Positions 1-30,336 of a stretch of 64,000 nt of DNA are shown piece by piece. Location: contig JAGTXO010000057.1 of the NCBI GenBank assembly GCA_019448385.1, forward strand, positions 1 through 64,000, given 5' to 3'. The stretch is from Diacronema lutheri. Its lineage: Eukaryota; Haptophyta; Pavlovophyceae; Pavlovales; Pavlovaceae. The translations under genes were made by a program, and so were the position numbers. A model generated the notes under the pieces. It was not told the DNA's origin, did no database searches, and was given only the letters and a program-made list of their open reading frames with translations. The first letter of the stretch is position 1; every line of letters begins with the position of its first letter.

Positions 1-489
1 AAGGGTGCACGTATAGATGGTCAGCCAAATCCGATCAGGGGCACGATCGCGCCCCGAGTGCAGCGCGGGCCGTTCGGAAGGACGTCCGTGTGAGGGAGCT
101 CTTCGCGTTTGGCGAGCGGGGGAGCACGACGCGCAGCGTTGCTGCGGCGGCGTGCGGGCGGCGAGCAGCGGTCGGGCTGCTCGCGACGAGGCCGGAGCAG
201 ACGGCGCCGTGGCCGCCGGCGCAGGTGACGCGCGCCGACGAGCCGTAGCGGAGCGTCCGTGATCCGCACGGCGGTTGGAGCGGGCCGCTGGTGCGGCGCG
301 CTCGGCCACGGGTGGCGGCGTGCACGGTCGTGCCGCGCGCGGCACGCGTCGCCAGCCGCGCGCGACCTGGGCAGAGCCCGCAAAGCGTCGACCGCTTGCG
401 CGGCTCGGCCGTGCGTCAACGCCGGCCGCGCTTCGGCCCGCGCGCGCTGCCGCCGCCGGCACTGGCTCTGGCAGCTCCGCGGGCGGGGG

Positions 490-735
490 TGCGGGCGCGA
501 GAGCCGCCGCCGCCACCGCCGGCCGCGCCCGCCGCCGTCGTCGCCACCGCCGTCGCCGCCGCCGCCTCCCCCCGCCGTCATCGTCGTCGTCGCCGGCCGC
601 CGCCTCCGTCGCCGTCGCCGTCGCCGTCGCCCTCGCCGCCGCCGCCGTCGCCGCTGCCATCGTCGTCGTCGTCGTCGTCGCCCTCGTCGTCGCCCTCGTC
701 GTCGCCGTCGCACTCGTCGTCGCAGTCGTCGCCCT
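490..735. repeat. GCC/GTC trinucleotide repeat
   Basis: Runs of GCC, GTC and CGT triplets. On the minus strand they encode the acidic Asp/Gly/Glu tail that ends the Fanzor frame. Upstream of it (1-490) I see no gene, only GC-rich sequence. Confidence 0.7.
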
Positions 736-3160
736 CGCCGTGCACCATGCGCTCCTCACGCTCCCACACCTCGCCGCGCGCCCACCAGGCGAGCACGAGG
801 GCAAAGCGCTCAGGCGTCGACGTGGTGTCGCGCCCGGCCGCGTGCGCCGCCATGTCGTGCACGTCGTAGAAGATGTTGCGCGCGGCGTTGTAGTCGCGGT
901 GCACGGGCTTCTTGCCGCCGTTGCACGCCGGGCAGATGACGAGCGCGTGCACCGTGCGCGTGCCGCCCTTTGCCACGGGCAGGCGCGGGTTCTGCGCGAG
1001 CTCCGCGCCGCAGCGCTGCAGCCTGCCGCCCTTGGCGAGCCGCGGCATCGAGCAGTGCATCGACGTGTACGGCTCGGGCACGAAGACGGCCGCGACGCCG
1101 CGCCGCCGCAGCTCGCGCAGCAGCCCCACCTGGAAGGCGGGCGGCGCGCCCTTGGGCTGCGCGCCCTTGTGTCGCGCAGCCACTTGCCCACGCACACGAG
1201 CAGCCGGTCGCGCGTCACGCCGTCGACACAGTGCGCCGCGATGAGCGCCTCGGCGACGCGCGCCGCGTTGGACCGCCCGCCGCTGTCGCGCCGCCAGCGC
1301 TCCTTCCGGCGCGCCGGCGCGTCGTACACGTGCTCGGCGGCGCGCTCGCGCACCCGCGCGCTCCTCGCGTGGAAGGCGTGGAACTCGCCCTCAGCCGAGC
1401 ACCTTGGCGCTGTGCGCCTCGCCAAGCCGCGCCTCGTCCGCCTCCACGCTGAACTCCTCGCCGCGCCCGTCCTTGCGCACGCGCCGCCGCGCCGCGTTGG
1501 TCTTGGCCGTCTCGCGCGCAAAGCCCGCGGCGCGCGCGCGCGCGCGCTGCGTGAACTGCCGCCAGACGGCCGCCCGCCCGACGTGCGCAGAGTAGGTGGT
1601 GATGTTGCCCATGTTCGGGTCGGCCGCGACGACGACCGCCGCCTCGACGTCGATCGCCCGCCGCAGCTCGGAGCCGAGCGCGACGGCGATGCGCCCGTCC
1701 GGCCGGCGCCAGCGGTGCAGGACGCCCGAGCCGCCGGCCGGCGCCTGCGCCTTCGGCACGAGGACAGTCCCGACGGCGTGCACGGCGACGCCATCTGTCA
1801 CCACCGACTTGACGGGCTGCCGGCCCGGGAGCGGCACGCGCGGCAGCGGCGCGAGGCCAACCCACGAGCGCCGCGCGTGCCACGGCAGATCGGCCGGCGG
1901 CCGCTCGCGCCCGGCGTAGTCGAAGACGCGGTTGGAGATGTCGAAGCGCGTCGCAAAGACCGCGTACCTGACGCGCACGTCCGACATCGGCGGGGTGTTG
2001 CCGTTTGTGCCTGTCCACTTGATCGGCTCGCCATCGTGGTCGCGCAGGTCCAGCGCCTTGAGCCGCGCGCGCAGCTCCTTGCGCTCGTCATCCGAAAGCG
2101 TCACCCAGATGGCGCTCGCGGCGAGGCGCACGTTGCGCGGCACCTGCGCGCAGCGCGCGGCGCGCGAGCGCGCGGGCGCGTGACCAACCTGGCCGCGGGG
2201 CGGCGCGCACGGCGGCGGCGCGCGCGCTTGGGCGCTCGGCGGCGGCAGCGGCAGCCGCGCCTCGCGCGCACATTGTGCGTGCGCAGCGGCGCCACATTGT
2301 ACCGCGGCGGCCGTCCGGTCAGCTGCGTGTGGATGTGCGCGAGCCGGCAGAGCAGCGCCTGCCCCTCGGCCACGTGCTGCAGGGTGCGGATCTGCACGAG
2401 GAAGTAGCGCGTCGTGTGCCGGTCGTAGTTCCACCTTTTCGTGGGCGTGCACTTGTAGTCGATCTTGTGGAGGACCATGTCGGGCAGGTGGCGGTCGAGC
2501 GCGGCGGGGCAGCCGACGCGCGCGCCCTCCACGTCGCCGCGCAGCAGCCGCTCGCACAGCTCGCGCACGCGCGCGTTTCGCTGCATCTCGGGCAGCGCGA
2601 CGAGCGCCTCGTCGCGCTCGACTGCCGCGCGGACGACGTCGCGGAGCAGCCCGTTCACGACGCGCGATGGATGCATCAGGCACGCGGTGGACACCTGCGT
2701 CGCCTCCGCCTCGAGGATCTCCGTGAGGCCCACCGCGCAGACGGGCTGGACGCCCTCGGCCATCTCGCCGACGGCGCGCGCCGTCGCCGCCTTGGTCTGC
2801 GCGGCGGCTTGCTCGGCGGGCTTGCCTCGGGGCGCTGCACCGTACGTGCTCTCGTCCTTGTGCCAGCCGATGGCCGAGAAGATCGCACGGACGGTTCCCT
2901 TGTCCATCGTGGTCGACGTGTGCACGCTGGTCGACGGGCCGCCCGACGCCGCGCCGACGGCCTGCGCGCTCGCCACCGCAGCCTCGTCGCGCACCACCTT
3001 GTTGATGACGCGGTACGCCTGTGTCGTGAGCCTGTGCACGGCCGCCGCGATGCGCCGCAGCTCCTTCCGCGCACCGGGCTGCGCCGTCACCGCCTGCGGC
3101 CCCGCGTTGAGCGTCGAGCGCTTGACCACGAAGCCCGGGAGCACGCTGACGCGCGTGCGC
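578..3160 (-). mobile_element. Fanzor (TnpB-like, RuvC) nuclease at the polyprotein C-terminus
   Basis: The N-terminal part starts near VLPGFVVKRS, with a helix RLTTQAYRVINK and a second helix HPSRVVNGLLRDVV typical of Fanzor. RYNVAPLRTHN is joined over a 128-bp intron (2271-2144) to VPRNVRLAASAIW, restoring the family's LR..NVP..VRL motif. PVKSVVTDGVAVH precedes the RuvC-I strand VVVAADPNMGN (Asp). Further down lie LLVCVGKW, VPEPYTSMHCS (RuvC-II Glu), CPACNG (zinc ribbon) and HRDYNAARNI (RuvC-III Asp). The first Cys pair of the ribbon is incomplete. The last 800 bp of coding signal pass through about two further changes of frame, so this copy is probably damaged or the assembly has indels. 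The C-terminus ends in an acidic Asp/Gly tail made by a trinucleotide repeat. Fanzors are RNA-guided DNA nucleases carried by eukaryotic transposons and giant viruses. Confidence 0.8.
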
Positions 3161-6100
3161 GCCGTCGCGCCGCCGGCGGCGCGCGCGCTCGGCGCAGCGG
3201 GCTCGTCCACGCGCGCGCGCTCGACGCCGCGCGCGCGGGGAACGCTCGGCGCGCGCGCGCCCGCGGCGTCGCGCGCGCTCGCGGCGGCACCCGCCGCGGC
3301 GCGCTTGCCCGCGGCGCCCGACTCGCCGTGCGCGCGAAGCGGCGCCGACGCCAATGCCGACGCCGCGCCCGCGCCGCCGCTGCCGCTGCCCGATACGCCC
3401 GCGCGCCGCTTCTGCTCGTCGCGCGTCTTGCGGAACTGGGCGACGAGGTCGCTGCTCACGTTGGCCTCAGGCTCCCACGTGTCGGCGCTCTCGTCGTAGC
3501 CCCGCCACCTGATCCGGAACTGGAACGTCACCTTCTTGCCCGCCTTGCGGCGCTCGTCGACGACCGCCTCGACCTCGTACGTGCGCGCCTCCTCGTCGAC
3601 GCTCGCGCCCGCCGCGCTCGCGCCCGTGTCCGGCCACCCAGCGACCGTGCCGCCCAGCCTCTCGGCGGCCGCGCGCAGCTGCCGCTCGCGCTGGGCGGCC
3701 GCGGCGCCTCGCGCGACCAGCGCGGGCAGCATGCCCGCGCCGCCCGCGAGGCCGTGCGCGCCGACGCTGGCGGTCATCAGCGCGTCGAGGCACGCGAACG
3801 TTGCGAGCGCACGCGCGCCATCGTCGCCGCCGCGCGGCTGCGAGCGCACGACGGGCGATGGCCGCGGCTCCCCCTCGGCCGCGAGCAGCGGCCAGATCGC
3901 ACTGGCCAGCGCGACGGCATGCGCGCCGACCGCGACGGCCACGTCCGCGTCGAGCGGCGCAAAGTCGTAGCGCACGAGCGCGGCCGGGCGCGAGTCGTCC
4001 GTCGGCCGGTCGGCGACGAGCAGCCCGACCGGGCGCGGCGGCTCGCCGGACGGCGCGGCGACGGGCACGCAGAGGAGCACGACGAGCAGGCGCGGCGTGC
4101 CGCCGAGCAGCGCGCGCGCGGCATCCGCCCCGTCGGCTCCGCCGCGCGCGGCCGCGGCGAGCAGCTCGGCCGCGCGCGTCGGGCCCAGCGCCGTGCGCGC
4201 GTCCTTGCGCGCGCGTGCGCGGGCCGTGTACGCGGCGCAGGCGTCGTCGAGCACCGCCGCGCTGGGCGCGGTGCCAGTCGTCGCCCACGCGCGCAGCGCG
4301 TCGCGCACCCGCGTGACGATCGCCTGGTCGACCGCCGCCTCGCCGGCAGCGTGCGCCGGCGCGCACGCCGGCGGTGCGGCGGCAGGCGCGAGCGCGGGCG
4401 CGCCGTCGGCGCCGTCAACGCCGACGGCGCCGTCGGCGCGCCGCCACGCGAGCTTCGCCTCGATCTGCTGCCGGACGGCGTGGCAGTGCCGGTCGATGCC
4501 GCGCGCGTCGTCGAGCGCGGCCAGCGCGTCCTCAGCGGCGGGACGGCCGCTCGCGTCCGCGACGGCCTGCAGGCAGAGCAGCGCGGCCGCACGCGCGTTG
4601 CACGCGCTCTGCGGCTCGGGCGCGAGCGCGAGCTCGAGCTCGAGCGGCGACGCGCCTCGCGCCGCGGCGATCGCGTCCATCAGCACGTCCAACCGCTGCA
4701 CCAGCGCCCTGTGCGCGTCGCGCGGCGCGCCCGTCGACGGCGCGCGCGAGCGCGTCGCCACGAGCCCGAGCGCGCGCGCCGGCGCGCCCGCCGGCGTGTG
4801 CAGCACGAGCAGCGCCGCGCCCGCCAAGCTCGCGTTGCGCGTGACGAGCGCGAAGATGCGCGTCGCCTCGTGCGCGCCCACCGACGCCCAGATCGCAGCG
4901 CGATCGGCGTCCGTCTGCGCGTCGCACAGGTCGCGCACGTCGTCCGGCGCGAGCAGCGCGCCGCCGCCGGCGGAGCGCGCGACGATCGCCCGCGCCTCCG
5001 CCACGAAGACGGCCTGCGGCAGGTCGGCGTGGCGCGCGTCGACGATGGCGCGCGTCGCGTGCACGCCGAGCTCCACGCCGCGGTAGAAGGCGCGCGCGTT
5101 GGCCGCGCGCGCGTGCGCCGGCCGTCCGTCCGCGTTGCGCCTCGCGCGCGCCTGCTTGCTCGTGCGCGCGAGGCCGTCGCGTGGCGGTGGCGGCAGCGTG
5201 GCGAGGAAGCGCGCGGCGGGCGGCGGCGCGCGCACGCCGCGCTGCCGCCGTGCGATGGCCGCGAGCCGCCGGCCCGCCGCGCTGCCGCCCGCGCCGACGT
5301 GCTGCCGGCGGCCGAGCGCCGCCGGTGGCGGCGGCGGCGGCGGCGCGGCGGCGGGCGGCGGCGCGACGGCGGGCGGCGGCGCGGCGGCGGGCGGCGGCGC
5401 GGCGGTGGGCGGCGGCGCGGCGGCGGGCGGCGGCGCGGCGGCGGGCGGCAGCGGCGGCGGCGCGGCGGCGACGGCAGCACCAGTCGGCTTGTCCGCCCAC
5501 GCACCCGAGACTCTGTCCCAGACCTTGCCCCATGGCGCGCGCCCACGCGGCCGCGCGAACTGCCCCGGCTCGAGCGCCTGGCCGCGCTTGGCGGCGGCGG
5601 CGGCGGCAGGGGGCGGGCGGCCGGCGCGCCAGTCGAAGACAGGTGCAACCGTGGCGGCAGGCGCCGAGTGCCGCGCGTCGGTCACAGAGCGCGTGGTGCG
5701 CGCGGCGACCGTGGCACGCCTGGCGGGCGGGCGGTGAGCAGCGCCCGCCGGCGCGCCGGCGGGCGCGGCCGCCTCGAGCCCGGCGGAGGCGCCGCGCTTG
5801 CGCTTGCGCGTGCCGCCGCGCGTGCGCCTGCGCGCGCGCCCGCCGCGCGCCCGTTCGGCCTGCGCGTCGCCAGCCGCGTCGCCGGCCGCGTCGCCGCGCC
5901 GCACGTAGACGACCGCGAACGCCTCCTCGCCGGTCCCGTCGACGCCGCCGCGCGCGCGGCGCAGGACCGACCGCCACTGCAGCCGCCGCGCGCGGCCGGG
6001 CTCGCACGCAAACCAGCGCCCACCGCGCCTGACGACGGCCACAAAGTCGTCGTCGCGCCGCCCGCGCCGGCGCGTGCGCAGCAGCACGCACTGCACGTCG

Positions 6101-9100
6101 AGCCAGCCCTCGTGCCAGTCGGCCGTGCTGGGGGCGACGCGAATCGACTGCGGGAGCTCGACGCCAAAGCCGGCGAGGCGCACGATGTGCGCGACGATGA
6201 CGCTCGAAATGGCGGGGGCGCTCGACGGGTCGCCCGCTGCAGCGAGCACCGCCCCGCCCCAGTGCTCACGCGTGACGCAATCCGCGTCCTCGACGTGCAC
6301 GTGCGCCACGCTCGCGCCGAGCTGGTGCAGCAACGCGCAGATGTCGGCGTCGACCGTCCTCTCCTCCTCGGCCGCCTCGGCCGTGCCGCGGGCGGCGGCG
6401 TCGCCTGCCGGCTGCCCGAGGTACGCGATCGCCCGCTCGACGGCCGCGCGCTCCGCACGCGCTGCGCTGTCGATCGCCGCATTGCCGACGGGCGCGCGCA
6501 GCGCCGCGATCGCGTCTTGCAACGCCGTCGCGTCGCCCGTCGCCGCCGCCGCCGTCACCGCCGCCGCGCTCGCGGTGCCGTGCGCGACGGCGTGCAGCGC
6601 GGCGGCGCGCGCGGCGGGGATGCGCCCGTCCAGCGCGAGCACGAGCGGCGGCCCGGCCGGCGTCTGCTGCCGCCGGTGCCGCCGGCTCGCAGCCGGGTGG
6701 TCGGCGCGCGCGCGCTCGAGCCGCGCGCGCCGCTCGACGACGCGCGCCCAGAAGGCCTGCACCCTCGGCTGCGCGAATGCAAGCCAGCCGGCGCCGCGCG
6801 TCACGACGTGCACGACGATCCGGTCCTCGTGCCTGAGGTACTGCACGTAGAGCGCTTTGCTCACGCCGAGGACGTGCATGCCGAGCTGCAGCTGATCGCG
6901 GTGCGGCTGCGGCGGCCCGTCCTCGTGCGCCGTGGCGCCCGCCTTGGTGAGCGTCTTCACCTCGACGAGGACCTGCTCGTTGTTTTCGGGGAGGATGGCG
7001 AGCCCGTCCGGCGAGAAGGCGAACGGCGCGCTCTTGTCGTGCGGGTCCGCACGCACCATCGGCAGGTTGCACACGACGGTGATGCCGTACGCGGCCGCCA
7101 GCTTGCGCAGCGCGACGGCCTCGCCGAGGATGCCCGCGGTCGTCGCCTTGGTCCGCACCTCGCGCCGCCGCCGGTGCACGTACTCGTCGGTGAGCGTCTC
7201 GTGCGCGACGCCGGCGTTGTCGTTCACGACGTCGCCAACCTTGCTGCCCGTGACCTCCTCCCATCGCTCGTCGTGCCAGCGCGGGCTGCGCTGCGCGGGC
7301 GCGCCCGCGCCGACGGCGTCGAGCACGCGGCGCAGCGCTGTGCCGTCGGGCGCAGCAGGCACGCGCGCGCGGTCCTGGGCCTCGCGAGCGTCGAGGACGC
7401 GGCCCGTAGTGGAATCTTGGGGTAGGTCGAGCTTGCTCGCCTCGCCGTAGCGGCTCTCCAGCTGGCGCGGTGCGTCGGCAGGGCCGCCGTCCGTGCGCGC
7501 ACCCGACGCGCCCGCCAGTGCACGCGGCGCAGCGTCCGAGGCGCCCGCCGCGCCCGCGCCGCCGCCAATCGCGCCAGCGCACGCGCGCGCCGCGACCTGC
7601 GGACGGCCAGCCGCAGGGACCTCGTCCGCTCGGCCGGCCGCTGCGTCGGCCGTCCGCTTGGCCACCTCGCGCACGTCTCCGAGCGCGAGCGTGGCTGGCG
7701 CCGTCCAGCTCCCGTTGCGTTTGTCCCAACATTTGAGCAGCCCGCCAAGGAAGGGCGTGCCCGTCGGGCGGTCCTCGGGCACCTCCGCCAGGATCGCGTC
7801 GACGCGCAGCGCGGCCGCCACATCGCAGAACGCGCGCGCGGCGCGCGCCATCCGCTCGGCGCGCGCGCCGCCGTCGTCCGCCGCGCGGCGGATGGCGTGG
7901 CTCACGTGCGCGACGCGGAGCGAGACGACGGCGTGCGCCGGCGCGTCGGCGCCCGTGCCGAGCGTGTGCCGCCGGATGGCCAGCTGCCCATCGCCCATGC
8001 GCGGCGGCAGCGACGCGCACGCCGCGACGGTCGTCGTGCCGGCCGCGCTGTCGCACAGCCAGCTCGCCTCGCCGCCGCCCGCAAACTCAAAGGTCGCGAA
8101 GCCCTCGCGGCCGAAAAGCGCGACGAAGTGGTCGAGCACCGCCTTGTTGATCGCGCGCGCCGCCGGCCGCGTCGATGCGCCGCGGGCAGCGCCACCCGCC
8201 GCGCCGCGCGCATCGCTGCACGTCGCAGGGCAGGTGCAGCCGGACGCGCGCACGCCGTCCGACCGCGTCCGCGGCAGCTCGAGCTCGCGCACCTTGGGGC
8301 AGAACCAGAGCGGGCTGGACGCCTCGAGGCACAGCACGACGAGCCGCCCGTCCGTGCCGGCCAGCGCGCGCGCGTCGCGCAGCAGCTCGACGGCGAGCTC
8401 GGACGTCGCCGCGTGCACCGCCGGCTCGCCCGTCGCGCGGTCGGGCGGGAAGAGGCCGCCGCCGACGAGCGGGCTGGGGCAGCGGCCGAGCATCACGAGA
8501 AGCGGCGGCGGCGGCGTCTGCGGCGCCTGCTGCCCGACCGCAGCCGCCGTCAGCCCGGCCAGGTCGGAGCTCGTGCGGAGGGCCTTGAGCGCGACGCGCG
8601 AGCCGGTGCCCGCCTGCTCGGAAAACGTGGCGAGCATGGCGCACGTGCTCGCCCTCGCGCCGCACTGCCAGCTGACGCGCGCGAGGAGGCCTTCCAGCGT
8701 GTCGTTTTCGCGCGGCCGCGTGACCGCGTCGAGCGCCGCCGGGCCGAGCTGGAGGCTGCCGGGCGTGACGCACAGCACCGCCTCGTGGTAGGCGCGCAGC
8801 AGCTCCCTCGGCAGCTGCTCGGCGGGCGTCGCCGCCTGCCCGCCCACCCACCGTGCACCGTGGCCGCCGTCGCCCGCGCCCGCGAGCCGGACCGCCGGCC
8901 CGCCCGTGATCGCCGAGGTCGGTGGCGTGCCGAGCGCGTCGACGAGCGCGCGCACGGGCGCGACACGCCTGCGCGCAGCGTCCGCGCCGACGGCGAGCGC
9001 GGCGATCTGAGCGCCGTCCCATGCGCGCTCCCTCGCGTCGTCCCGCGCGGCCGCCGGCGCGGCGCCCGGCCGCGCGCCGGGCGGCACCGCGCACGCCGCC

Positions 9101-11000
9101 GCGACGACCTCCGCGCGCGCGCCGGCGGCGTCGGGCGCGTGCAGCTGCGCGAGCGCGCCAAAGAGCGCGGCGGCCGAGCGGTAGCGGCCGTGCGCCGCGA
9201 CGAGCGCGTAGAGCACGCGCAGCGCGGCCACGCCCGCCTGGTCGGGCGCGTCGCCAGCGATTTGCTCGACCTCCCACGTGCGCGTGGGCGGCGGGCTGCC
9301 GTCGGCCGGGTCCGGACGCAGCGCCCACGCGCGCTCGACGATCGCGTTGAACACGCCGTGCGCGGCGCCCTCGTCAAACTCGGCGGCGCCCGCCGCGTGC
9401 GCGCACCACCCGTGCACGCGCGACGTGGGCGCGTCCACGGCGCGCTGCACGACGAGCACCGCCGGCCGGTCGACGCAGCCGAGGCTCACCGCCGCGTGCT
9501 TGCCCTCGAGCAGCGCCGCCGCCGCAGCCTCGACCAAGGCGTCATCAGGCGCGTCGCCGACGACGACGGCACAGCCGTCGCCGTACTCGGCCTGCATCGC
9601 GGCGACGCACGACGCGACAAAGTCGCCGCCCGCGGCCGCCGCGTGTCGCGCCGCCAGCATCCGGCGCGCGATGGCAAGCCAGACGTACTCAGCCGGCGCG
9701 CGCGCGGCGCGCGCGCGAGGCGCGCCGGCCGCGCCGCGTGCGCCCGCGCGTGCGCCTCCAGCGGCCGCAACGGCCGAGGCGGCTGGAGCGGCGGTGAGCG
9801 TGCGCCGCGCGCGCTTCGCCGGCCGCGTGATGGGCGATGCACCCGCCATCGCACCGCCCGCAGCAGCCGGTGCGGCCGCCACAGCGCCCGCCGCAACGCC
9901 ACTCGTCACGACGCCCGTGGCGGGCGGCGCGGCGGCGGACGTGGCCGCCTCGACGGGCGTCGCGCAACTACCGCCAGCGGTCGCGGACGCGCCCGGCGAC
10001 GCGTCGGCGAGGAGGTGGCGCAGCACGCCGCGCGCGAGCGCGACTCGCACGGCGAGCGTCAGCGCGCGCAGGCGGTCGGAAGGCGAGGCGTCGCGCTCGG
10101 CGTCGGCGGACGTGGCGGCAGCAGGCGGGGCGGCGGGCGGCACGGCGGCGGGCTGGGCGGCCGTCGGCGCAACCTCGTCGGCCTTGGCCAGCCAGACGAG
10201 CCCGGCGACTGCGAGCACGACGCTGTACGCGCCGACATCGTCACCCGCAACGCGCGCCAGCCGGGCGTGGGCGTCGGCCTCGGACACGGCGACGTGGAAG
10301 AGCACGTCGTCGCGGGCAGCTTGCTCGGCAAACTGACGCAGCTGCTTGGCCATCGTCACGCCGGCGACGCACGCCTCGCCCGCCTCTGCCTCGACCTGCT
10401 CGTCCTGGCCGATGGCGGACGCGCCGGCCTCGGCGCCAGCGTCGAGTGTCCGGCGGCGCTCGAGGGCGAAGCCACGCACACAGACGCGCTGGAGGCCGCC
10501 GAGCGCGCCCGCCTTCTCGTGCAGCGCGCACGACAGCTCGACCACCGAGTCCACGCGCCTCGCGGCGGCGCCCCCCCGCTCGCCGCGCGTGGCCGCGCGC
10601 ACGACGAACACCGTGAATTGCGCGCGCTTCGCCGCGCGCGCCGACGCGCACGCGTGCTTCAGGAGCCGGCAAAGCGCGGGCCTTTGCGCCGCTGCGCCCC
10701 GCGTGCACAGCAGCAGTTGGCCGCGCTCGTCGCCCAGCTCCTGCTCGACGGCGGCCTCGAGCGCGTCGTCCGTCAAATCGCCGTGCTCCGTCGAGGCGAG
10801 CGCGCGCGCAGCCGCGAGCGCCAGCTCGCCTGCGCCCGCGCGCCGCCGGCGGCGCGCACCGGCGGGCGCGTGCGGCGCCGACGCGTGTGACGACGCCGCC
10901 GCGTCCGCGCGCGCACACGCGGCGCGCAACGCCTCACGCGCCGAGGCGGCCGCGCGCGCCCTGGGCGCGAGCTTCAAGAACGTGCGCGCGGCGGTGGCGG

Positions 11001-11070
<70 letters not shown>

Positions 11071-14000
11071 TCGCCCGCGTCGCCGGCCGGCGGCGGCGGT
11101 GGCGGCGGTGGCGGCGCGGCCACGGCGGCGGCAGCAGCGGCGGCGGCGGCGGTGGCGGCGGCGGCGGCGCCCAGCGCGGGCGGCGGCGGCGTGGCGGCGG
11201 CGGTGGCGGCGGCGGTGACGCCAGCGGCGGCCTTGGCGCCGCGCGTCTGCGGCGGCGTTTCGGCGCCATCGGGGCTGCCCCCGCCGCGCACCGCGCTCGT
11301 GACCGCGCAGACGCCGCCCGGCGCACGATCGCTGGCCGCGCCGGTCAGCGCGACGCGGAGGCGCTCGCCGACAGCGTACATGTCCGCCACGCTGAACGTG
11401 CGCGGCGCGGACGAGCAGCCCGCCGCGGCGAGCGCGTCGTTGAGCGCGCCCACTATCGCGAGGCCGCACGTCGCGCCACGCTGCGCCGCCTCGTTGAGCA
11501 GCAGCGCGCGGCGCACGCGCGAAATGTCGAGACCCGCCGCGTGCAGCGTGGCAGTTATCGCCTTGGCGAGCATGAGCGCCTGCCTGCAGGGCGACGCGAG
11601 CGTGTCGACGAGCACCGCGTCGTAGCGATGCTCGCCCGCGCGCGCGACGCGCACAAGGCGCAACGCGGTGAAATGGCCGGAGGCGAGCTGCGCGCCGTCG
11701 TCACCGCCCGCGCCGCCGCGCTCGTCCGACGGGCTCCACACGCCGATGACAGCCTGCGTTGTCGCCTCGCTGCGCAGGCGGTGCAGCAGCGCGGCGCGGT
11801 CGGCGTCGTCCTGAAACACCGCGGGTTGCGCGGCGAGCGGCACGTGGCAGACATGCCCGCCGCCGGCCTGCCCGTGCACGCGCAGCACGACCTCGCAGCA
11901 CGCGTCGACGGTTGAGGCGAGCATGTCGCCGCTGGCGATGCGCTCCACCTCTGCCTGCGGGAGGCCGGCGCTCGCGGCGGCGGCGGCCAGCCGGCGCGCA
12001 GCCGCGTCGCCCGCCCACGCAAGCAGCGCCGAGTTGGCGGGTTGGAGGGGAAGCTCAAGGGCGGCTGGTTCGGTGGCGGTAGCCTCGTTGGCAACGGGCA
12101 CGTTGGCGGTGCGCGCGTTGGCGGCGGGCGCGGCGGCGATGGCTGGTGGGGCGGAAGACGCGCCCGCGGCGGCGGGCGCGGACGCGGCAGCGGCAGCGGC
12201 TAGTGGGGCGGGGAAAACGCCGTCGGTGGCAGGCGCGGAGGCGAATGCAGGAGCAACTAGTGGGGCGGGAAAATCGGCGGCAGGCGCGAAGGCGGATGCA
12301 GCAGCGGCTAGTGCGGCGGGGAAAACACCGTCGGCGGCAGGCGCGAAGGCGGATGCAGGAGCGCCCAGCGGGGCGCAGAAAACACCGTCGGCGGCAGGCG
12401 CGAAGGCGACAGCAGCAGCGGCCAGTGGAGCGGAGGCGCAGGGCCACGCGCGCGCCAGCCGTGCAAGCCCAAGCCGCGCGCGAGCGACGCACGCGCCGAT
12501 GGCCGAGGCGGCGGCGCAGGCCACGACGTGGCCTGGCACCGGTGTGGCCAGCCGCTCGCGGGTGTGCACGTCGAGCCGCGCCCCACGCCAAGAGCGGCGG
12601 CGCGCTGAACGGAGGCGCGCGACCCCGATCGATCCGCCCGCGCACGCGCGCGCCGGCTCAGTGTGGCCAACGCGCGCCGTTATGCAAGGCGCGCGCGCGA
12701 TAACGGCGGCTGTCGGCCGTGGCGTGCGCGTGGCGGCGCCGCGGCGACGGGCGCGGCACACGAGCCGCTCGGGCGCGCCGCCGCCGCGCGGCACGATGTC
12801 GAGCAGCACGGTCACGCCGCGCGCGCGCGCGACCGCCGTGCACGCGAGCCGCACGGGCAGCGGCGGCCCGTCCGGGCGCGCGAGCGCCGCCACCTCGGCG
12901 TCGGTGAGGCTGTGCAGCTCGCGGCGCGCGCGCGCGAACGCGGCGATGTCCGCGCGCAGCTCCGCGTCCGTGCCGAGCGCGGCACGCGCGTGCACGGGGA
13001 GCGACGCGCGCAGCGCGTGGAGCACGCCGCCGCGCGCGCCGCGCGGCGCCGGCGCGCGCTCGCGCTCAGCGCGCGCGGCGCGCGTGAGCTCGCGCACCGC
13101 GCGCGCGAGATTGCGCCGCGCGGCCGCGACGGGAGGGCTAGGTGCGCGCGCGCGCCGGTTGTAGCGCGGCCGCGCCGAGTCGAGGGGCGGCGGACGCGGT
13201 GCGTACGCCGCGGCGCGGCCCGCGCGCCAAAAGGCCGGCGGCGGGCGCAGCTCCGTCGCGTCGACCGCGGCCGCGAGCGCGCCGAGCGCGGCGTCGCTGT
13301 CGCCCGCCGCGTCGGCCGCGTCGACGAGCACGAAGAGCGCGCCGAGCGCGCGCGACGCGGCCGCCTGCGCGGCGGTGGGGCGGGCGCAGGCAGCGACGCA
13401 TGCGGCCGCCATGCCGCGCGCCGCGGCGAACGCCGGTGACGTGACGGCCGCGCCGATGGCAACGGCGGCGGCGGCGACGGTCGAGGCGGCAGCGCCGGCG
13501 ATGGAGGTGGCAGCGGCGGCGGCGCTTGCCATCGCGCGGCGCGCGAGACGCGAGGCGCCACCGACCGCCGCCGCCGCAGCGCGCGCTGCGCGCGCGCCGG
13601 TGGCGCGCATCGTCGCCGCGCCAGGCGCCGCCGCGCCGACGCCGCCGGCGCCCGCGCCGTCGCCGCTCTCGGCCGTGCAGGGCTCCGATGGCGAACCCGG
13701 CGTGCGCTGGCGCGTGATGCGCGCGCCGAGGCGCGCGCTCCGCGCCGCGCGGCCGGCGACGTCGAGGAAGCGCCGTGCGCGCGCCGCGCGCAGGCCACGC
13801 GCGCGCGGCGGCGCACCGACAGGCGCCGAGCGCCGCGGCGCGCACGCCGGCGCGTCGCTGTCGGGTTGCGCAGCGCGCGCGCGGGAACTCGGCGCGGCGT
13901 GTGCGGGCGGCGGGCGCGCGCCCGCGCGGCGCAGAGGCGCGAGGCGCCGGCCGCAGACGAGGCGTGTGCGCAACCAGGACGGCGAGGGCCGCAGGGCGCC

Positions 14001-17000
14001 GTCGACGTCGCGCATCGGCGGGCCGCGAGCCCGCCGCGCAGCCGTGCGGCGCGCGCGAGGCGCTCGGCGGCGCGCGCGCCGCACGGCGCGCGCGGCGGCG
14101 CGCACGCCAGCGACGGCTGCGGCCACGCCGCGCGCCAACACGGCCGCGGCGTGCGCCATCGCACCGAGCACGGCGCGTGGCGCGCCGAGCAAGCGCAGCA
14201 AGCGCGACGCCGTCGCGCGCGCCGGCGCACCGTGTGCAGGGGCCTCGCCAGCGCCAGCACCGACGCCGCCATCGCCGCAGCCGCAGGTGGCGTCGCCGCC
14301 GCCGCAGGCGTCGCGACGGACGCCGCCGCCGCCGAAACAACCGCCGCACACGTCGCCGCCGACGTTGCCACCCCAGCCGCCGTTGCGTGCGCAGGTGGCT
14401 GCGGCGCGTGCGTGCGGGAGGCGTGCCGTGCGGCGCGCATCACACGGGCTGCGCGACGCGAGCGACGCCGCCGGGGTCCCCGCTGCGCCAGGCGCGCCGT
14501 GCGCGCCAGCCTCGCCGGCCTCGCCGGCGCGCGGTCGCGCGCTCGCCTCGACGTGGCCGCCTCCGCCGCCATCGCCGCCGTCGAACCGGGCGGCGGAGGG
14601 CTGCCGCTCGAACCGCTCGTCGGCGTCGGCCGCCACCGCCGCCTCGCGCTCCGCCGCCGCGGCGGCCGCACGGCGCGCGTGGCGGAGCGCGCGGCCGCCG
14701 TCCGCTGCGCGGCGTGGCGGCGCGGGCGCGGGCTTCGGCGCGCGCGGCCCCTCGGCGCGCTCGCGGAGCACGGCGAGCGGCGTGCCCGTGGCGACGCTCG
14801 TGCAGACGCGCCGCAAGGCGGCGCTTACGCACGCGTGGACGACGCGCGCCGTCCGCTTGTCGGCGGCGCGCGCGGCGCGGCGCGCGGCCTTGGCGGCGGC
14901 CTTTTTGGCGCGCCTCTGCTCCGCCTGCTCCGACAGCGCGCGCGCCTGGCGCTCGGCTGCGAGCGCGTCCTCGGGCGAAACGGTCGGCCTCGGCGGCCGC
15001 GCGCGCGCGCTGCGACGCTGCGCGCTGCGGCGGTCGGACGGCGGCTGCCGCGGCGGCGAGGACGGCGAGCGCGAGCTCGGCGTGGGCGACCAATCGCCGC
15101 TGACGGTTGCGAGCGGCGCAAACGGGTTGTCGTCCCCGCGACCCGCGGCGTGCGACAGTGCACGCGGCGTCGGGCGCCGGCCGACCGCTGGCGGGCCCCA
15201 CTCGGACGGCGGCTCCGAGGGCGAGCGCGCCGTCGGCGCCGCGCGTTGCGCGGCCGGCGGCGCCTCCCGGTCCAGCGCCGCCTGCTCTCTCGCCGCGGCC
15301 TGCTCGTCACCCTCCGGCACGCCACGCGGCGCGAGCACCGCGGTGGCGCAGCGCGTCGCGTTGAGCAACGCCGCCTCCATCTGCCGCACGCTGGCCTTGG
15401 CGCACGCCACACCCTGTCTCGCCCGGCGCAGCGCCTCGTGCGCGCGGCGCACTTCCGCGTCGGCATCTTCGCGCATGCCAAAGTGCGCCTGTTGCAGCCG
15501 CAGGTCCGCAGGGCGCCCCTGCGCGCGAGGGGCACGGGCGCGGCGGCGCGCAGGTGACGGAGCTGGCGCGCCGTTCTGCGCTGCGCGCACGCCAATCGAC
15601 GGGCGCGCGCGCGGCGGGGCGCGCGCGCGCGCGCGCGCGCGCGCTGCCTACCCAGCCGCCGGCCGGCTCGCGCGAGCGCGCCAGCTGCTCCGCCGCCTCG
15701 GCGTCGAGCACGCGCTGCTGCGCCTCCTCCTCGCCCAGTGCAGCGAGGTGCAGCCGGCGGGCTGCCTTGCGGCAGTTGCCCTCCGCCTTGCCCACGGCCT
15801 TGCGCGCCGCGTCGACGGGGTCGTCGTTGGCTCTGGCGCGCCTGCGCTTGCCCTTGTCGGCGGGCGGCGGCTTGGCGCGCTGCAGCGTGCCGAGCGCGTC
15901 GTCGGCTCCGCGCGCGGCCGCCCGCGGGCGGCGGGCCCCAAAAAGCGCACCGGTCGCCGTGCGCGCCGCGCAAGCAACGACCAGCGCTGACATGCCGGCG
16001 AAGACCGCACCGCCCAGCGCCACGGTTGCCACGATGCGCAGCGTCCCGTGCGCAAGCTGCGCTGCCTCCGCCGCTTTGGCGGCCTCGCGCGCGCGCGCAT
16101 CGGCGGCTCTCATCTCGTGCAGCAGCCCGGCCGCGCCGCTCGCGCCGTCGCGGCCGCGCGCGAGCTCGCACAGCACCGCCGCCGCGCGCCGCGTGGGCTC
16201 GCGCGCGAGCAGCTGCGCGCCGCCGTCGGGGCGCAGCTTCTCAACGAACTCGACAAACGTCGCGTCGCGCCAGAGGGACATGCGGAAGGCCCTGTGCACC
16301 GCCCCCTCCTGCTCGCGCATCCGCCGTGCCGCCCGCCTGCCGTCGCGCGCGTGCGCGTGCGCGGCCGCGTCGAATCCCGCGACGCCGCGCTGCGCGTCGC
16401 GCGCGGCCGACGACGGCGCCGCCGCGCTGCCCGCCAAGGGCGCCGCAGCGGCGACGCGCGCGTGCGGAGCGACGGGATCGCCGGCGGCCGGCGGCTCGGC
16501 GCGCTGCGGCGTGCCGTTTGCTCCGTGCGCGGCCGTCCCGGGGGAGATGGCCGCGATGGCGCCGCCAGCCGCGCCGCGCGCCAGCCACGCGCATAGGCTG
16601 CCGACGAGCTCGCCGAGACCCCCGACGGTCGCCGCGGCGGCGAGTGCGCCGGGCTTGCCGGCCGACAGCGGCTCGCGAGCGTCGTCGTCGCAGCCGCCGG
16701 CACCCGTCTTGGCGAGTGCGTCGCGCTCGCCCTCGACGCCCGCCACGACCGCCGCCCCTCCGTCGTCCGCCGCGCCGGCCGCGCGCGCGGCCGGGCGCAG
16801 AGGAGGCGTGCCGGTGCAGCCGTCGCCGCTCGTCTTCGCCGTTTCCTCCACTTTGGTCACTTCGTCGCCACCTGCGCCATCTCCGACGCCGGGGCCCTTG
16901 GTCACGCTTGCCGCCATGCGCGCCGTGCCCGCCGGCCAGCCCGCCGACTGCTCGAGCGCGGCGGCGAGCGGCGCGACGCGCGTCGACTCGGGCGCGCTCT

Positions 17001-19326
17001 CGTCATCGGGCTCGAGCGCGTTGTGCAGGCGCGCGAGCGCGCGCTCGACGGCCGCGGCGCCACTGCCGGGGGCGCGGCTCGCCACGCGCACCGCGCGCCG
17101 CCAGGCCGGCGCGAACATGAGCGCCGGCTCGAGCGCCGCGAGCGCGCGCGCCTCGCGCGCGTCGCTCGCGCCGAGGCGCGGCGGCACGCGCGCGGCTCCG
17201 CGCGGCGCGGTGCCTCGGAAGCGTGGGCTCAGCGTGTAGGCGAGGTGCTGCGGCACGCCGCGCGCCTCCGCGCGCGCGCGTCCGTCCTCGACCTCGCGCC
17301 GCGCCTTCGCGATCGCCGGCGTGGCGCGCGCGAGCCAGTCGGGGTCGGCGGGCAGGTGGATCACGACGAGAATCGGCGCCCAGTCCAGCCGCGGGTTCTT
17401 GTGACGGTCGGGCACGACCCACACGAGCAGCACCGTGCCCTCCGCGCCGCACGCCGCCTCGTAGATCCTGGGCTGCGAGCGCCAATCGGGCCTGACGCGC
17501 AGCGCCCGCGCGTGGTCGATGGCGGCGGCGCGGTCGCCATTGAAGTGAACCGTCGTCACCTCGCCGATGACGGACCGGCCGGACCGCCAGCAGAACACCG
17601 CGTCCGCCGACCCGCCGGCGATGGCCGCGAGCGATTCGGGCGCGGCGAGCCGCGGCAAGCCCTCGAAGGCGGCAAAGTCCTCGTGCGCATTGTACACGCC
17701 GCCCCAGCCGTCGTGCGCGTACGCGCGCGCGGCCGCTCGTACCGCGCGCGGCTGGTTCTCCACGCCCGACGTCATGTGCCATGTCGTCCCCGCGAAGCCG
17801 GGCTCGCCCAGCTCGGCCCGCACGACGGCACCGTACCCCGCGCCCTGCGTCGGGGCGGCGAGGTGGTGCATGCCCGCGCCGGTCACGCCCTCCGTGCGCT
17901 GCCGCGTGACGATCGTGCCCGTCGCGTGCGCGAAAAGCGTGTCGACCACGGCGGGCGCGCGCCCGCTGTTCGCCCGTAGCCGCGCCCTGCCCGCTTTTAG
18001 CTGCTCGGGGTCCTTGGCGTCGTACACGCGCGCGTCCGCGTCGCCCTCATCAGGCGCAGTGTAGACGCAGCGGCGTTCGAGCGGCGCCGAGCCACCGCCG
18101 TCCGCCGCCGCCGGCGAGGTTGGCGCCGCGCCCGCCGCCACCGCGCTCGTCGCCGCCGTGCCCGTCGCCACCGCCGCAGCCGCCGCGCCCGCGGGGTCGT
18201 CGTCCCCGTCCTCCGCGCCCTCCCCGTCGTCAGCGGTGGTGGCGTCGCCATCGTCCCCGTCGCCCTCGCCCCCGCCGAGGCTGCTGAATGGTCGGGGCCC
18301 CCACGCCGAGGCGGCGCGCCGCTGCGGCGCACGCGGCGGTGGCGCTCGCGACGGCGGCCTTGGCGCCGCCGCGCCGCGCGGCCTGGCCGCCGTCGACAGC
18401 GCGCGGCCTGCAGCGCCCGTGAGCGCGTCGAGCGCGGCCGTGCGTGCGATGCGGTCGTCGGGCGCGCGCAGCGCCGCCTCGACGGCCTGCAGCAGCCCGT
18501 CGGGCGCGGATCCGCCGACACTGGCATCGCACGCCTCGGCGAGCCGCGCGGCCTCGGCGAGCCGCGCGGCCTCGCGGGTGAACGGGCCGAAGCGCCTGGC
18601 GCGGTCGCCGAGCAGAGCGCCGATGGCGGCGCGGAGCGTGCGCGCGCGGGTCTCCTCGTACGCGGCCGTCGTGAGGCGCGCGAGGCGCGCGTCCAAAGCC
18701 TTCTTGATGTCGACAAGGACACTCGCGCGGCGGCCGTAGAGCGTCGATGCGCTCGCCACGACCTCGGCCGCGACTGTTGCCGCGGCGAAGCAACACGCGG
18801 CCCCACTCTGCGGGGGCGCCTTGAAGGCATCGATGGGCGGCGCTGTTCTGCCGATGCGCTGCGCAAGCTTCTTGATGAGCACGCCGGCCGCCGTGGCGTA
18901 CGCCGATTCGCCGTTGCCCAAGGTGCGCGAATCGGCGAGCAGGGCGAGCGCGGCGCCGGGCGGCGCGCCGCGCTGCGCGGGCGGCGCGAGGAGCAGGTAC
19001 GCCGCCGTCCAGTGCACGAGGCCGCTGGACGCGCGGAGGCAGAGCGGTAGCACGACCACGAGCACCTGCCCAAACCGGTCCGCATCCGCGCATGCTTTGC
19101 GCAGGTTGCGCAGCGCCACCTTGAGCGCATGCTGCGAGCACCCCGTGTCGCCCACCCTAACCCTGCTCGTGCCGAAATCCGCGTAACGCAGCAGGGCGAT
19201 GAGGCAAGTGGATGGGACCACGTGGGGGTGGGTATCTCCCGGCGACAGAATGGTGCTGAGGGCCAGCGAGAAACTGTCCGAGCCGCCCCGCCCGCCGGGC
19301 AAAGCGTCCTTCACGGAGTCCTCCAT
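578..19326 (-). CDS. Giant spliced polyprotein: Ulp1-like modules, YqaJ nuclease, chromodomain, Fanzor
   Basis: A chain of minus-strand open frames behaves as one gene of roughly 6,000 residues. Frame A runs 19326-15652 and is phase-compatible, across a 133-bp GT-AG intron (15651-15519), with frame B from 15518. Frame B (to about 11.1 kb) joins frame C somewhere in the GGC tract near 11.0-11.3 kb; that junction is unresolved. Frame C (to 2272) joins the Fanzor tail across a second intron (2271-2144). Order from the N-terminus: protease-like module, charged coiled region (about 15.7-16.1 kb), Ala/Pro-rich linkers, second protease, several degenerate protease-like modules, PD-(D/E)XK nuclease, chromodomain, Fanzor. 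The ATG at 19326 begins MEDSVKDAL and lies just before the first protease module. Seen: motifs and phase-matched introns. Inferred: a single polypeptide that may process itself. It could instead be two or three genes. No capsid, integrase or polymerase domain was found. Confidence 0.6.
3398..3590 (-). other. Chromodomain
   Basis: About 60 residues beginning TYEVEAVVDERRKAGKK and continuing FRIRWRGYDESADTWEPEAN match the chromodomain consensus. The aromatic-cage positions are Tyr near the start, Trp in the IRWRGY strand and Trp in the DTWEPE turn. A basic helix (FRKTRDEQKRRAG) follows. Chromodomains bind methylated histone tails and are used by some retroelements and transposons to target chromatin. 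Here it sits directly N-terminal to the Fanzor nuclease in the same frame, suggesting chromatin targeting of that nuclease (inference). Confidence 0.85.
5320..5480 (-). repeat. GGCGGC-rich repeat encoding Pro/Ala linker
   Basis: A tandem run of a roughly 21-bp GC unit encodes repeated PPPAAA-type segments in polyprotein frame C, separating the YqaJ side from the following protease-like module. Confidence 0.7.
6730..7300 (-). other. YqaJ-like PD-(D/E)XK nuclease domain
   Basis: The domain opens with RSPRWHDERWEEVTGSK, the W...R...ITGS entry typical of YqaJ/lambda-exonuclease proteins. It continues through LGEAVALRKLAAAYGI to the core FAFSPDGLAIL (Asp), then VLVEVKTLTKAG (Glu-Val-Lys), then HRDQLQLGMHVLGV (Gln-rich helix) and a strand YVQYLRHEDRIVVHVV. 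Family members are metal-dependent exonucleases acting with recombinases in viruses, phages and transposons. All core residues are present, so it could be active. It lies between the protease-like array and the chromodomain in the same frame. Confidence 0.75.
10985..11330 (-). repeat. GGC/GCC trinucleotide tract at the frame B/C junction
   Basis: A long run of GGC triplets (purest at about 11000-11070) and related GGCGGT/GGCAGC sequence. On the minus strand it encodes poly-Ala or poly-Arg according to frame. The switch between polyprotein frames B and C falls here. An intron hidden in the tract or a length error in the assembly could both explain it. Confidence 0.7.
11430..11960 (-). other. 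Ulp1/C48-like cysteine protease module 2
   Basis: This is the best preserved protease module. It has SGHFTALRLVR (His near 11677), a short spacer, YDAVLVDTLAS (Asp), and then NEAAQRGATCGLAIVGALND with Gln, Cys and Gly (Cys near 11470). This is the normal H...D...Q...CG order of Ulp1/adenain-type peptidases. It sits C-terminal to the 57-bp repeat spacer and immediately before the GGC tract, so it would lie in the middle of the polyprotein. Activity is plausible because all four key positions are present. Confidence 0.7.
12200..12432 (-). repeat. 57-bp in-frame tandem repeat inside the polyprotein
   Basis: About four imperfect 57-bp units lie in frame B just N-terminal to protease module 2. 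Each encodes about 19 residues around an F-A-P-A-A-D-G-V-F-P-A-P-L core. The unit is a multiple of three, and one unit is shortened. In the protein this makes a flexible Ala/Pro spacer between domains. Confidence 0.75.
15519..15651 (-). other. Intron joining polyprotein frames A and B
   Basis: Frame A reads to a Trp codon ending at 15652, followed by GT. Frame B resumes after CAG at 15518 with GRPADLRLQQAHFG, and both sides are phase 0. The 133-bp interval is rich in alternating GC like the other introns here. Frame A would otherwise run into low-complexity Arg/Ala sequence, while frame B upstream of 15518 is equally uninformative. This supports the junction but does not prove it. Confidence 0.55.
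17000..18100 (-). other. Conserved-looking segment of the polyprotein, possible nuclease-like fold
   Basis: After the first protease module and an acidic/alanine linker, the frame has a stretch with normal residue variety (about 18.05-17.2 kb) instead of Ala/Arg/Pro bias. It contains ADAVFCWRSGRSVIGEVTT followed by two hydrophobic strands (GTVLLVWVVPD and APILVVIHLPAD). The Asp-then-Glu-x-Thr spacing on strand-like sequence recalls a PD-(D/E)XK core, but the usual Lys is Thr. I do not assign a function. The segment probably folds as a domain, and structure prediction is needed to name it. Confidence 0.3.
18770..19240 (-). other. Ulp1/C48-like cysteine protease module 1
   Basis: About the first 190 residues of the polyprotein show the Ulp1/C48 order of catalytic elements. 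A strand is followed by VHWTAAYLLL (His-Trp near 19010), then ALLADSRTL (Asp near 18930), then PPQSGAACCFAAATV (Gln and Cys near 18790-18805). In this family the His-Asp-Cys triad with an upstream Gln forms the active site and cuts ubiquitin-like modifiers or polyproteins. The usual Cys-Gly pair reads Cys-Cys here, so activity is uncertain. Its place at the extreme N-terminus fits a self-releasing protease, which is inference. Confidence 0.6.
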
Positions 19327-21229
19327 CTGCAGACTGTGGGCACGTCAGTGTCCGGATGGCGGCCCGGATGATACTTGGGAGAATTTACATGATGCCCTGG
19401 AGAATGCCCCGCTCTCCCACAACCAGGACCCGCCAGCGCGCCGAGCCTACTCGTTTGCCCGCGCCGCCTCTCTTTGCGCGCCCGAGCGCGGCCTCCGAGC
19501 GCGGCCAACGTCCTCCGGGGGCGTGCATCGTGGCTGCTCGGAGGGGCTGCGACGCGGCGAAAGCTCGCTGCGCGGCCGCAACGTGAGCGCGCGCGCGCGG
19601 CCGCGCGCCGGCCTGCGCTGCTCTGCACGGCCGCGCGCCGGCCTGCGCAGCCTCGTCGCGCAGCGTGAGCGCGAGCGCGCGCGAGGCGAGCTCGGCGGAT
19701 GGGTGCGCGGCGGCGTTGGCGGCGGGTGCGGCGGCAGGCTGGGCGGCGGGTTTGGACGGAGAGTGTCGGGGAAGAACGGGGCGCATCCTGGCTGGGAGTT
19801 GGACGGCGCCCACCACGCGCTGGCGGATCCTGGTTGCCACCACCACCCCCCCCCCCCCCCCGGAGACGAGGACCAGGGGCATGGCCGACTCGCTGCGCCG
19901 CACAGCGCGCGGCGCGCGGCATGCTGCGCGACCTCAAGCACATCCAGCCGCGCTCCGCCCACGCAACGCGCGCAATGCCGCGTTGCACTGCAGGTGTGCA
20001 CGTGCGGCTCTCACGCGCACTGTGTTGCACGAACGGCATCACGCCACCGAGCTGCGTCCGGACCACGCGCCGCGCGCAGGCGACCACACAGGGGCGCGCC
20101 GCGCCGCGCGTGCGCGCCCTCGCAACCGTTGCAGCACGCTCTGCCTTGCACTGCGCCGAGCCGCCGCGCGCTGTGCGCGTGCATGCAGGGCGCACGCGTG
20201 CGACGAAGCGCGCGCGCGGCGAGGCGCGCGGGCGGCTCGCTGCGCGGGCGGCAACGCGCCCAGCTGCGCCCAGGCCAGGCGCGCGCCCGCGAGTGCCACC
20301 GGGACGCACTGCCCCCGCCGGGGTCGCCGCGCGCTCTGTGTGTGCGCTCGCGCGCTGCGAGCGCGGCGGAACGTTCGTGCATGGCGCGAAGAGCGCGGCA
20401 CCCGAAGACGGCTGCCCCGAGCCCGCGCCGGGTGGCAGCGAGCGGCGGCACCTCCTCGGCGAGCCCGCCCCGCGCCTTCCCCTCCACGTGGCGTTTTGAG
20501 GCAGACGGACACGCGCCCACACTGCGACTGGGCACGCTGCTCGAGGCAGACACGCACCCAACGCGCGCGCACCACGCGCCCGCGTCGGCGGGCCGGTGTG
20601 AACGAGCGAGAGCTCGGTGTCGCCAACGGGGGCACGGGCGCGACTTCGGTCCGCCTCTCGACGGACGCAGGCGACGCTGCCGGGAACTTCCCCGACGCCT
20701 GCACATCCAGGGCTTCGAGGTACAGAGCTGGGCAACAGTGCCGCTCGTCACCGATGAGGCGGCCAAGCTCGCTATCCTTGCTGCCCTCGGCTCCACCAAA
20801 CAGCCGGGCGACCCAACGGTTCGTGATCGCCTGGCCGCCAGGTGCGAACCGCGCCCGTGCAAGCGCTTCACCCGCATTCTCCGCCCCGCTGCGGACGTCC
20901 GCCTGCCGGCCGCGAACACGGCCGGTGCGCGTTGCCGCCTGGCCCAACACGAAAACCCGCCCGCCCCCGAGGCCGCAGGTCCTACCTGCCCAAGCGCAGC
21001 CCAACGGCACGCAGACAGCCCGCCTTGGCAACCGACTCGTGCGCGAGCGCTCCGCCCTCCACAAGAGCCTGCCCCACGCCACCGCCGACGCGGAGCCAGC
21101 GCAGCCGACGCCCCTCCGCGACGCTCGCGCCGCAAGGCGCAAGGGCCCCGGCGAGACGGCGTCAACCAAGCCCGCCGCTGGCACAGCGCCGGCACCCGGA
21201 GCCCACCCCAAGCCCCCGCGCACGCCTCG

Positions 21230-21260
<31 letters not shown>
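21230..21260. repeat. Poly-C tract (31 C)
   Basis: Uninterrupted run of 31 cytosines. A shorter run of 16 lies at 19846-19861. No gene context. Such runs are hard to sequence, so the length may be inaccurate. Confidence 0.9.
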
Positions 21261-21261
<1 letters not shown>

Positions 21262-21663
21262 ATCGGCGGACCGATTGCGTTTTGGTGCGCCAGGCTCAAT
21301 GCGCCATCGCAGTGGCGGGCCCGCAGACGCAGACGCTGACATGCCCAACGCTGGGCACTGAGGCCGCAGGCCGGCCCTCCTGGACCTGGCGGGCGAGCTG
21401 CCCGCGCAGCGGCCACGCGAGCCTCGCACTGACCGTGGCGGTCGCTGCCACCGTGATAGCTGCGGGTGCGGCGGCCTTGGCCCCAACCCCATCATCCGTC
21501 TTCATCCCCGCCCTGCTCGCGCTCGCGGCCTACGTCGGCAATCCCTGCACCGGGATCCGCCCCGCGAAGTCCACACAAGACTTATCCGTGCTGCACGCCA
21601 GCCGCGCGCGCCGACGCGCGCCGCTCCCACACGCTCACCTCCGTTTCCGCGGGCGGCCCAACG

Positions 21664-21697
21664 CCCCCCCCCCCCCCCCCCCCTCCCCCCCCCCCCC
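21664..21697. repeat. Poly-C tract interrupted once (C20-T-C13)
   Basis: Thirty-four bases of cytosine with a single T. It lies in the gene-poor interval left of the deubiquitinase gene. Confidence 0.9.
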
Positions 21698-30300: not shown

Positions 30301-30303
30301 AAG

Positions 30304-30336
<33 letters not shown>

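Follow-up and report, generated by a model that had tools for sequence, protein, structure and literature searches.

A dispersed 31-kb element of the haptophyte Diacronema lutheri with a long reading frame predicted to join an exonuclease, a chromodomain and a Fanzor nuclease

Results

A mobile element of Diacronema lutheri

The 64,000-nt stretch of Diacronema lutheri DNA analyzed here (positions 1 to 64,000 of contig JAGTXO010000057.1, assembly GCA_019448385.1; hereafter the window) carries on its minus strand a 31-kb mobile element that is dispersed in well over a hundred copies in this alga. Its predicted coding set consists of a PIF1 helicase, a ubiquitin-specific protease (USP) and a very long frame that ends in an exonuclease, a chromodomain and a Fanzor. 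Fanzors are known as stand-alone proteins encoded by transposons of many types; the Fanzor of this element is predicted to share one open frame with a chromodomain and a recombination exonuclease. On balance, the element is probably a giant DNA transposon whose class is unassigned and whose behavior resembles that of Helitron2, a judgment that takes in the copying route and the roles proposed below for the Fanzor and the proteases.

Extent, copy number and ends

The initial annotation had proposed a large mobile element from the frames at 578..19326 (18.7 kb). Exact ends and dispersed copies with different flanks bore out the mobile element, while the unit had to be redrawn: end comparison among copies gave a length of 31.04 kb (window 11-31055), with a separate PIF1 helicase and a USP. 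The element and its termini are as follows.

11..31055, minus (sense): whole mobile element, 3' end at 11 and 5' end at ~31055; ends common to dispersed copies, flanks differing
11..32, minus: sense 3' terminus, ..GGCT(T)GACCATCTATAC, at 221 places with ≤2 mismatches
38..55, minus: subterminal stem GGGGC..GCCCC, near the 3' end
31050..31056, minus: sense 5' terminus and TATATA junction, at the right ends of copies

The assembly searched comprised 43,492,796 bases in 103 contigs, the window being C80:1-64000. The 221 places with the 3' end were divided 116 and 105 by strand, and a reversed control gave none. Scored matches were obtained for the exonuclease (YqaJ) part at 150 places among 203 candidates and for the Fanzor part at 142 among 604; in the 5' part, 33 of 323 candidate matches were scored. 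With the window itself and a place at the end of contig C82 left out, 31 matches were available to define the 5' limit, and 30 of them stopped at window 31047-31059, the remaining one 86 bases earlier. Since the C82 place has the same flank as the window copy, the two are probably a single copy lying on two contigs. Ten two-ended copies had flanks that were all different, with ends 31.00-31.06 kb apart by coordinates; pairing of the nearest ends would make three further copies shorter, at ~12.6, 26.0 and 26.1 kb.

Among the first 30 listed of the 221 3'-end loci, 26 retained 1.5 kb of the element at 98-100% identity and four were 5'-truncated pieces of 143-383 bp (~94% identity) with unrelated sequence, host-like by eye, directly upstream. 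A duplication of ~46 bp, whose units show two differences, borders one of the four truncated copies, and no duplication was seen at the remaining three. The copies that were compared are nearly identical, and the element has most likely been active recently. Contigs C1, C12, C3, C8, C80 and C82 start or stop at or near element ends, and the element is therefore probably behind many of the assembly breaks.

At the sense 3' side, the loci compared had ..GATTTGGCTTGACCATCTATAC in common, followed by differing flanks. This left junction reads GTATA in nine of the ten two-ended copies and GTTA in the other. Among distinct strings, GTATA was counted in 40 of 41, a figure that is inflated because most of these loci were retrieved with a pattern already containing the 3' end. 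The right (sense 5') junction reads TATATA at 12 of 12 right ends and in all ten two-ended copies, the two sets sharing at least one copy. In 20 distinct strings, a set that kept TATA-containing strings only, TATATA was followed by G (15) or C (5) and preceded by G (10), C (9) or A (1). No target duplication beyond TATA was found at the element ends in any of the ten full-copy pairs, and with TATA at both ends a 4-5-bp duplication and a core sequence look the same. In one pair, an 11-base string in common lay 48 and 35 bases from the ends, against 9 in mismatched controls. Terminal inverted repeats were absent, the longest inverted match between the terminal 300 bp being ≤8 bp versus a mean of 10.6 for the internal control. 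The GGGGC..GCCCC stem was kept with five loop variants in 38 sightings (overlapping loci counted apart), and the 5' end contains an 18-bp palindrome (fold z -1.8).

Several copies of the element hit or border a 75-bp repeat (TAACGGCGCTTACG..GTCGTCG; 44 matches), at either end of the repeat, and TAC stands directly before nine of the nine repeat copies read. An exact empty site was sought in this repeat and none was found; one unoccupied repeat copy contains TATATAC.

The long reading frame

The minus-strand frames in the left part of the element contain the following features, given in sense order.

18699..19212, minus: Ulp1/C48-like motif 1 (H, D, Q, C), motif only
15489..15651, minus: candidate intron 1, GT..AG, phase 0, 163 bp, without independent support
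11327..11750, minus: Ulp1/C48-like motif 2, motif only
6868..7278, minus: lambda-exonuclease / YqaJ / RecE-like nuclease domain, from profile matches
3427..3579, minus: chromodomain (PF00385, 3.5e-12)
2272..3153, minus: Fanzor N-terminal half, in the same open frame as YqaJ and chromodomain; inferred limits
2144..2271, minus: intron 2, GT..AG, phase 0, 128 bp, leading into the Fanzor catalytic half
420..2143, minus: Fanzor catalytic half; the RuvC-I D lies near 1620, and 872-1111 contain the zinc ribbon and RD

As originally proposed, the frames form a strand-consistent chain, and third-position GC tracks this chain in most 300-bp windows. In the copy on contig C36, a single frame of 4,495 codons replaces the two window frames of 1557 and 3199 codons, and it contains the second Ulp1-like motif, the lambda-exonuclease/YqaJ domain, the chromodomain and the N-terminal half of the Fanzor1. 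The C36 frame and the profile matches supported the proposed order, with a YqaJ nuclease and a chromodomain preceding the Fanzor, in a single frame. Frames of 4,400 or more codons were found at 86 of the 150 scored YqaJ matches; they reached at least 4,000 codons at 105, fell within 4,490-4,525 at 66 and exceeded 5,000 at 7.

The window and C36 copies differ by 133 substitutions across the element, none of which creates a stop in the tested frames, by 32 bp in the length of a CCG run at the break between the two window frames and by single-base indels in the Fanzor part. These breaks of the window copy are missing from the C36 copy and are therefore indels, not introns; introns near 11.0 kb and below 1.4 kb were ruled out in this way. 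The frame of the Fanzor catalytic half is likewise broken by indels in the window copy, and its end was taken from the C36 copy. Of the phase-compatible introns initially suggested, two GT..AG junctions in phase 0 were retained, and several other breaks proved to be copy-specific indels. The splice of intron 2 (..RTHN/VPRNVRL..) is also present in the deposited D. lutheri protein KFE25_006464, which comes from a diverged copy.

At the C36 locus, third-position GC in 300-bp windows followed frame 2 at 11.8-15.4 kb, frame 0 at 15.7-28.8 kb and frame 2 up to 30.4 kb, and it was weak or off-frame in a minority of windows within 15.7-28.8 kb. The last of these frame changes coincides with the 128-bp intron, and candidate intron 1 is also located at a change. 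Less certainly, candidate intron 1 would add the first ~1,200 residues, with the first Ulp1-like motif, and bring the predicted product to 6,185 residues, counted from the Met at window 19326; the frame change there may be either a 163-bp intron or a gene boundary.

Support for the exonuclease domain came from the RecE-like PHROG_434 (7.4e-17) and from TIGR03033 (7.1e-7; 29.5 bits versus a cut-off of 68), and the YqaJ Pfam profile scored 22.4 bits in the genome search, where its cut-off was 22, and 15.6 bits on the long frame. The two Ulp1-like H-D-Q-C sets occurred in none of 500 shuffles, with a pattern written after both had been sighted. Neither part had a match in Pfam, PHROGs, NCBIfam or PDB. 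Their structure models had mean pLDDT values of 45.0 and 41.8; the low-confidence model of motif 1 has the order helix-strand-strand-strand-helix, and a fold search with the second model gave no match at E ≤ 0.001. The domain searches thus supported the nucleases of the initial annotation, while its Ulp1 assignments went without a match and their models were too poor to decide. A D..ExT stretch at window 17006-18046 (minus frame 15307-19344) resembles by eye a diverged PD-(D/E)XK nuclease and had no library match.

The Fanzor part

A TnpB/Cas12f-type zinc ribbon was detected in the window copy (PF07282, 6.9e-7). In the C36 copy the published Fanzor1 pattern, D-X(125-275)-[TS][TS]XX-C4-X(5-50)-RD, is satisfied, and none of 2000 shuffles kept its regular-expression form. 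In this copy, 184 residues separate D from TS, the cysteines are located at 657, 671, 697 and 700, and RD follows 8 residues further. The alignment with a second D. lutheri Fanzor covers the half that contains RuvC and the zinc ribbon and takes in E-x-Y-T-S (26% over 335 residues, E 2e-8). The TnpB profile NF040570 gave 0.023, far under its cut-off; the PDB sequence search returned weak matches only, including Cas12f1 at 0.35; and the homologue search recovered just a near-identical 570-residue ENA protein and KFE25_006464.

Other Fanzor families of this genome score higher, ~31 of the 148 PF07282 genome matches lying above the main type. In one such family, 13 matches share a score of 43.9 bits, and seven of these lie in frames of more than 1,400 codons. 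Another Fanzor, at C85:60600-66500, lies in a 1,779-codon frame, and the piece upstream of it is without similarity to the long chain.

The 5' part and the search for a mobilizing enzyme

The remainder of the element contains the following features.

25260..27614, minus: PIF1-type helicase gene, three frames, introns likely, limits read by eye
22770..23478, minus: USP/UCH protease domain with Cys and His boxes (PF00443, 2.1e-7)
29336..29884, plus: hypothetical small gene, open frame only, no Pfam match at E≤1
28186..29056: large imperfect nested palindrome, arms of 378 nt, 96% complementary

The helicase was matched by the PIF1 profile (1.5e-24 and 3.7e-14) and by Pif1_2B (4.6e-13); the helicase of Helitrons and Helentrons is of the PIF1 family. 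The His box of the USP domain aligned with USP12 (E 0.046). The reverse self-match of the palindrome was seen in the 33 scored copies, and the palindrome may be an origin of replication.

Profile scans covered the minus-strand chain frames and all six frames of 19.4-31.05 kb. In the latter, just two further Pfam matches were obtained, one to AAA, overlapping the helicase, and one to a phage cement protein (0.46). The scanned frames yielded no match to an integrase, a capsid protein or PolB. The Helitron Rep profile PF14214 had no match in the chain or in the six 5'-part frames, from which a very diverged Rep could escape; by eye, a few H-x-H strings were noted and none was a convincing HUH motif. 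Relatives of the long frame were not found elsewhere, and three scans of viral contigs yielded no relative.

The right part of the window contains frames like P4-type flippase, RCC1-like and LdpA-like proteins, which fits a nuclear contig. This host part also carries two near-perfect tandem arrays of ~4 copies each, with units of 39 bp (39858-40020) and 46 bp (42828-43017).

Discussion

A replicative element fits the helicase, the exonuclease, the fixed 3' end and the truncation on the 5' side. A giant transposon of this kind would spread by a Helitron2-like route, one-ended and rolling-circle-like, in which the helicase and the exonuclease would serve copying and strand handling. TnpB sits at the 3' end in IS605/IS607 elements (PMC10711439, PMC10432273). 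The Fanzor, located by the putative 3' terminal hairpin, would use an omega-RNA ending at the 3' terminus; by analogy with TnpB, its guide would be the 3' flanking DNA and its adjacent motif the TATA of the 5' junction. Cutting of unoccupied sites by this enzyme would favor retention of the element. The protease domains would cut the chain or remove ubiquitin/SUMO, and the chromodomain would tether the chain to chromatin. A bolder proposal, which we regard as unlikely, is a new class of replicative giant transposons without a classical transposase, in which the cut made by the fused Fanzor at TATA-flanked DNA drives transposition; strand exposure and copying from the 3' end would then be the task of the lambda-type exonuclease and PIF1, and the chromodomain would keep the complex at its target.

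Several observations weigh against a Helitron2-like transposon. No HUH Rep, DDE enzyme, tyrosine or serine recombinase, reverse transcriptase or polymerase was found in the scanned frames, and the sole genome-wide match to a Helitron Rep (C63:35738-36019, 8.3e-23) lies on another contig. The ends read TATATA.. and ..CTATAC, the Helitron 5' TC and 3' CTRR being absent, and the fold of the last 120-160 nt is no better than that of shuffles. A clear duplication was seen in just one of the four truncated copies. Between the window and C36 copies, moreover, no excess of silent changes was found: 27 of 91 in the long frame (23.7 expected), 0 of 8 in the first frame (2.7 expected) and 2 of 7 in the C-terminal half of the Fanzor (2.1 expected). 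The missing excess weighs against constraint since the divergence of the two copies; coding in the source element would still be compatible with it.

The same lack of constraint would be expected if the long frames were products of chance in DNA of 78% GC, with domain names read into low-complexity sequence. Stops are rare in such DNA: apart from the long frame, the sense strand of the C36 copy has frames of up to 711 codons, and a frame of 1,787 codons lies antisense in the window copy, so that long frames alone are weak proof here. However, 4,495 codons exceed such frames, none of the 2000 shuffles kept the Fanzor pattern, and the E-values of the domain matches already contradict chance, which we consider extremely improbable. 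A weightier alternative, though still not a likely one, is that the Ulp1-like part, the exonuclease part and the Fanzor come from separate transcripts or starts. Separate genes would agree with the change of frame at 15.5 kb, where the second frame has a Met close to its start, and with the deposited KFE25_006464, which starts inside the Fanzor. Against them stand the C36 frame, which keeps exonuclease, chromodomain and Fanzor N-terminal half together, the recurrence of frames of at least 4,400 codons at 86 of the 150 scored places and the mostly continuous third-position GC.

Two further alternatives concern the type of element. In a Crypton-like tyrosine-recombinase element, TATA would be the crossover core and the recombinase would be hidden in the unassigned parts of the chain. 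TATA at both junctions, the lack of any longer duplication at the ends and the occurrence of Cryptons among Fanzor1 hosts (PMC10711439) are in line with such an element. However, no integrase match was obtained at E≤1 in the chain or at E≤10 in the 5' part, and 5'-truncated copies would not be expected, which makes a Crypton quite unlikely. YqaJ, PIF1 and proteases also occur in large algal DNA viruses, and the gene set of PIF1, YqaJ, USP/Ulp1 and Fanzor would suit an endogenous virus, or an element derived from one, amplified by repeated integration. Haptophyte viruses are also listed as Fanzor carriers (PMC3627910), and the word YqaJ occurs in giant-virus papers. Against this stand the exact TATA junctions, the very high copy number, the lack of any capsid, polymerase or packaging match and the three viral-contig scans without a relative, and a viral origin is judged to be improbable.

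For a giant transposon with Helitron2-like behavior, the nearest counterparts are the Fanzor1-bearing Helitron2 elements CRe-1,2,3 of Chlamydomonas (Bao and Jurka 2013), of which copies with full 5' ends lack a duplication, 3' ends are in excess and duplications flank some truncated copies (PMC3627910). The D. lutheri element shares with them the Fanzor1 cargo, full copies without duplication, an excess of 3' ends with 5'-truncated copies and a fixed 5'-junction sequence. It differs in its 31 kb, in the predicted fusion of the Fanzor to a giant protein, in a stand-alone PIF1 without Rep, in TATA instead of TTTT, in the proteases, exonuclease and chromodomain, and in a duplication of 46 bp as against ~7-19. 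Helitrons and Helentrons with an OTU protease (PMC6431247) likewise have a helicase, a cysteine protease and full copies without duplication, but here no HUH Rep was found and the termini are different. Polintons/Mavericks, also giant transposons (PMC6431247), are similar in size class and in their many accessory genes, whereas no PolB, integrase, capsid or terminal inverted repeats were found here.

With the Fanzor1 SpuFz1 (PMC10432273), the D. lutheri Fanzor has in common the RuvC D, E-x-Y-T-S, the C4 zinc ribbon, RD and a gene adjoining the 3' end of the element, and the SpuFz1 adjacent motif CATA resembles the TATA found here. In contrast to SpuFz1, it would form the last ~750 residues of a chain of thousands, with a putative guide RNA and a predicted activity. 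Fanzor1 has been described with DDE, Crypton and Helitron enzymes (PMC10711439). In the open-licence literature, no description was found in which a Fanzor is combined with YqaJ, Ulp1 or a chromodomain, and the main text of the D. lutheri genome paper (PMC8379373) contains no word starting with "transpos".

That no recognizable transposase is present in the scanned frames is a puzzle in its own right. If all copies are of full length, as was checked for some, the element may fill about one-tenth of the genome (150 places of 31 kb, or 4.65 of 43.5 Mb). If the fusion is true at the protein level, RNA-guided cutting, end resection and chromatin binding would be united in one natural protein, and the role of Fanzor for transposons would become directly testable in a cultured alga.

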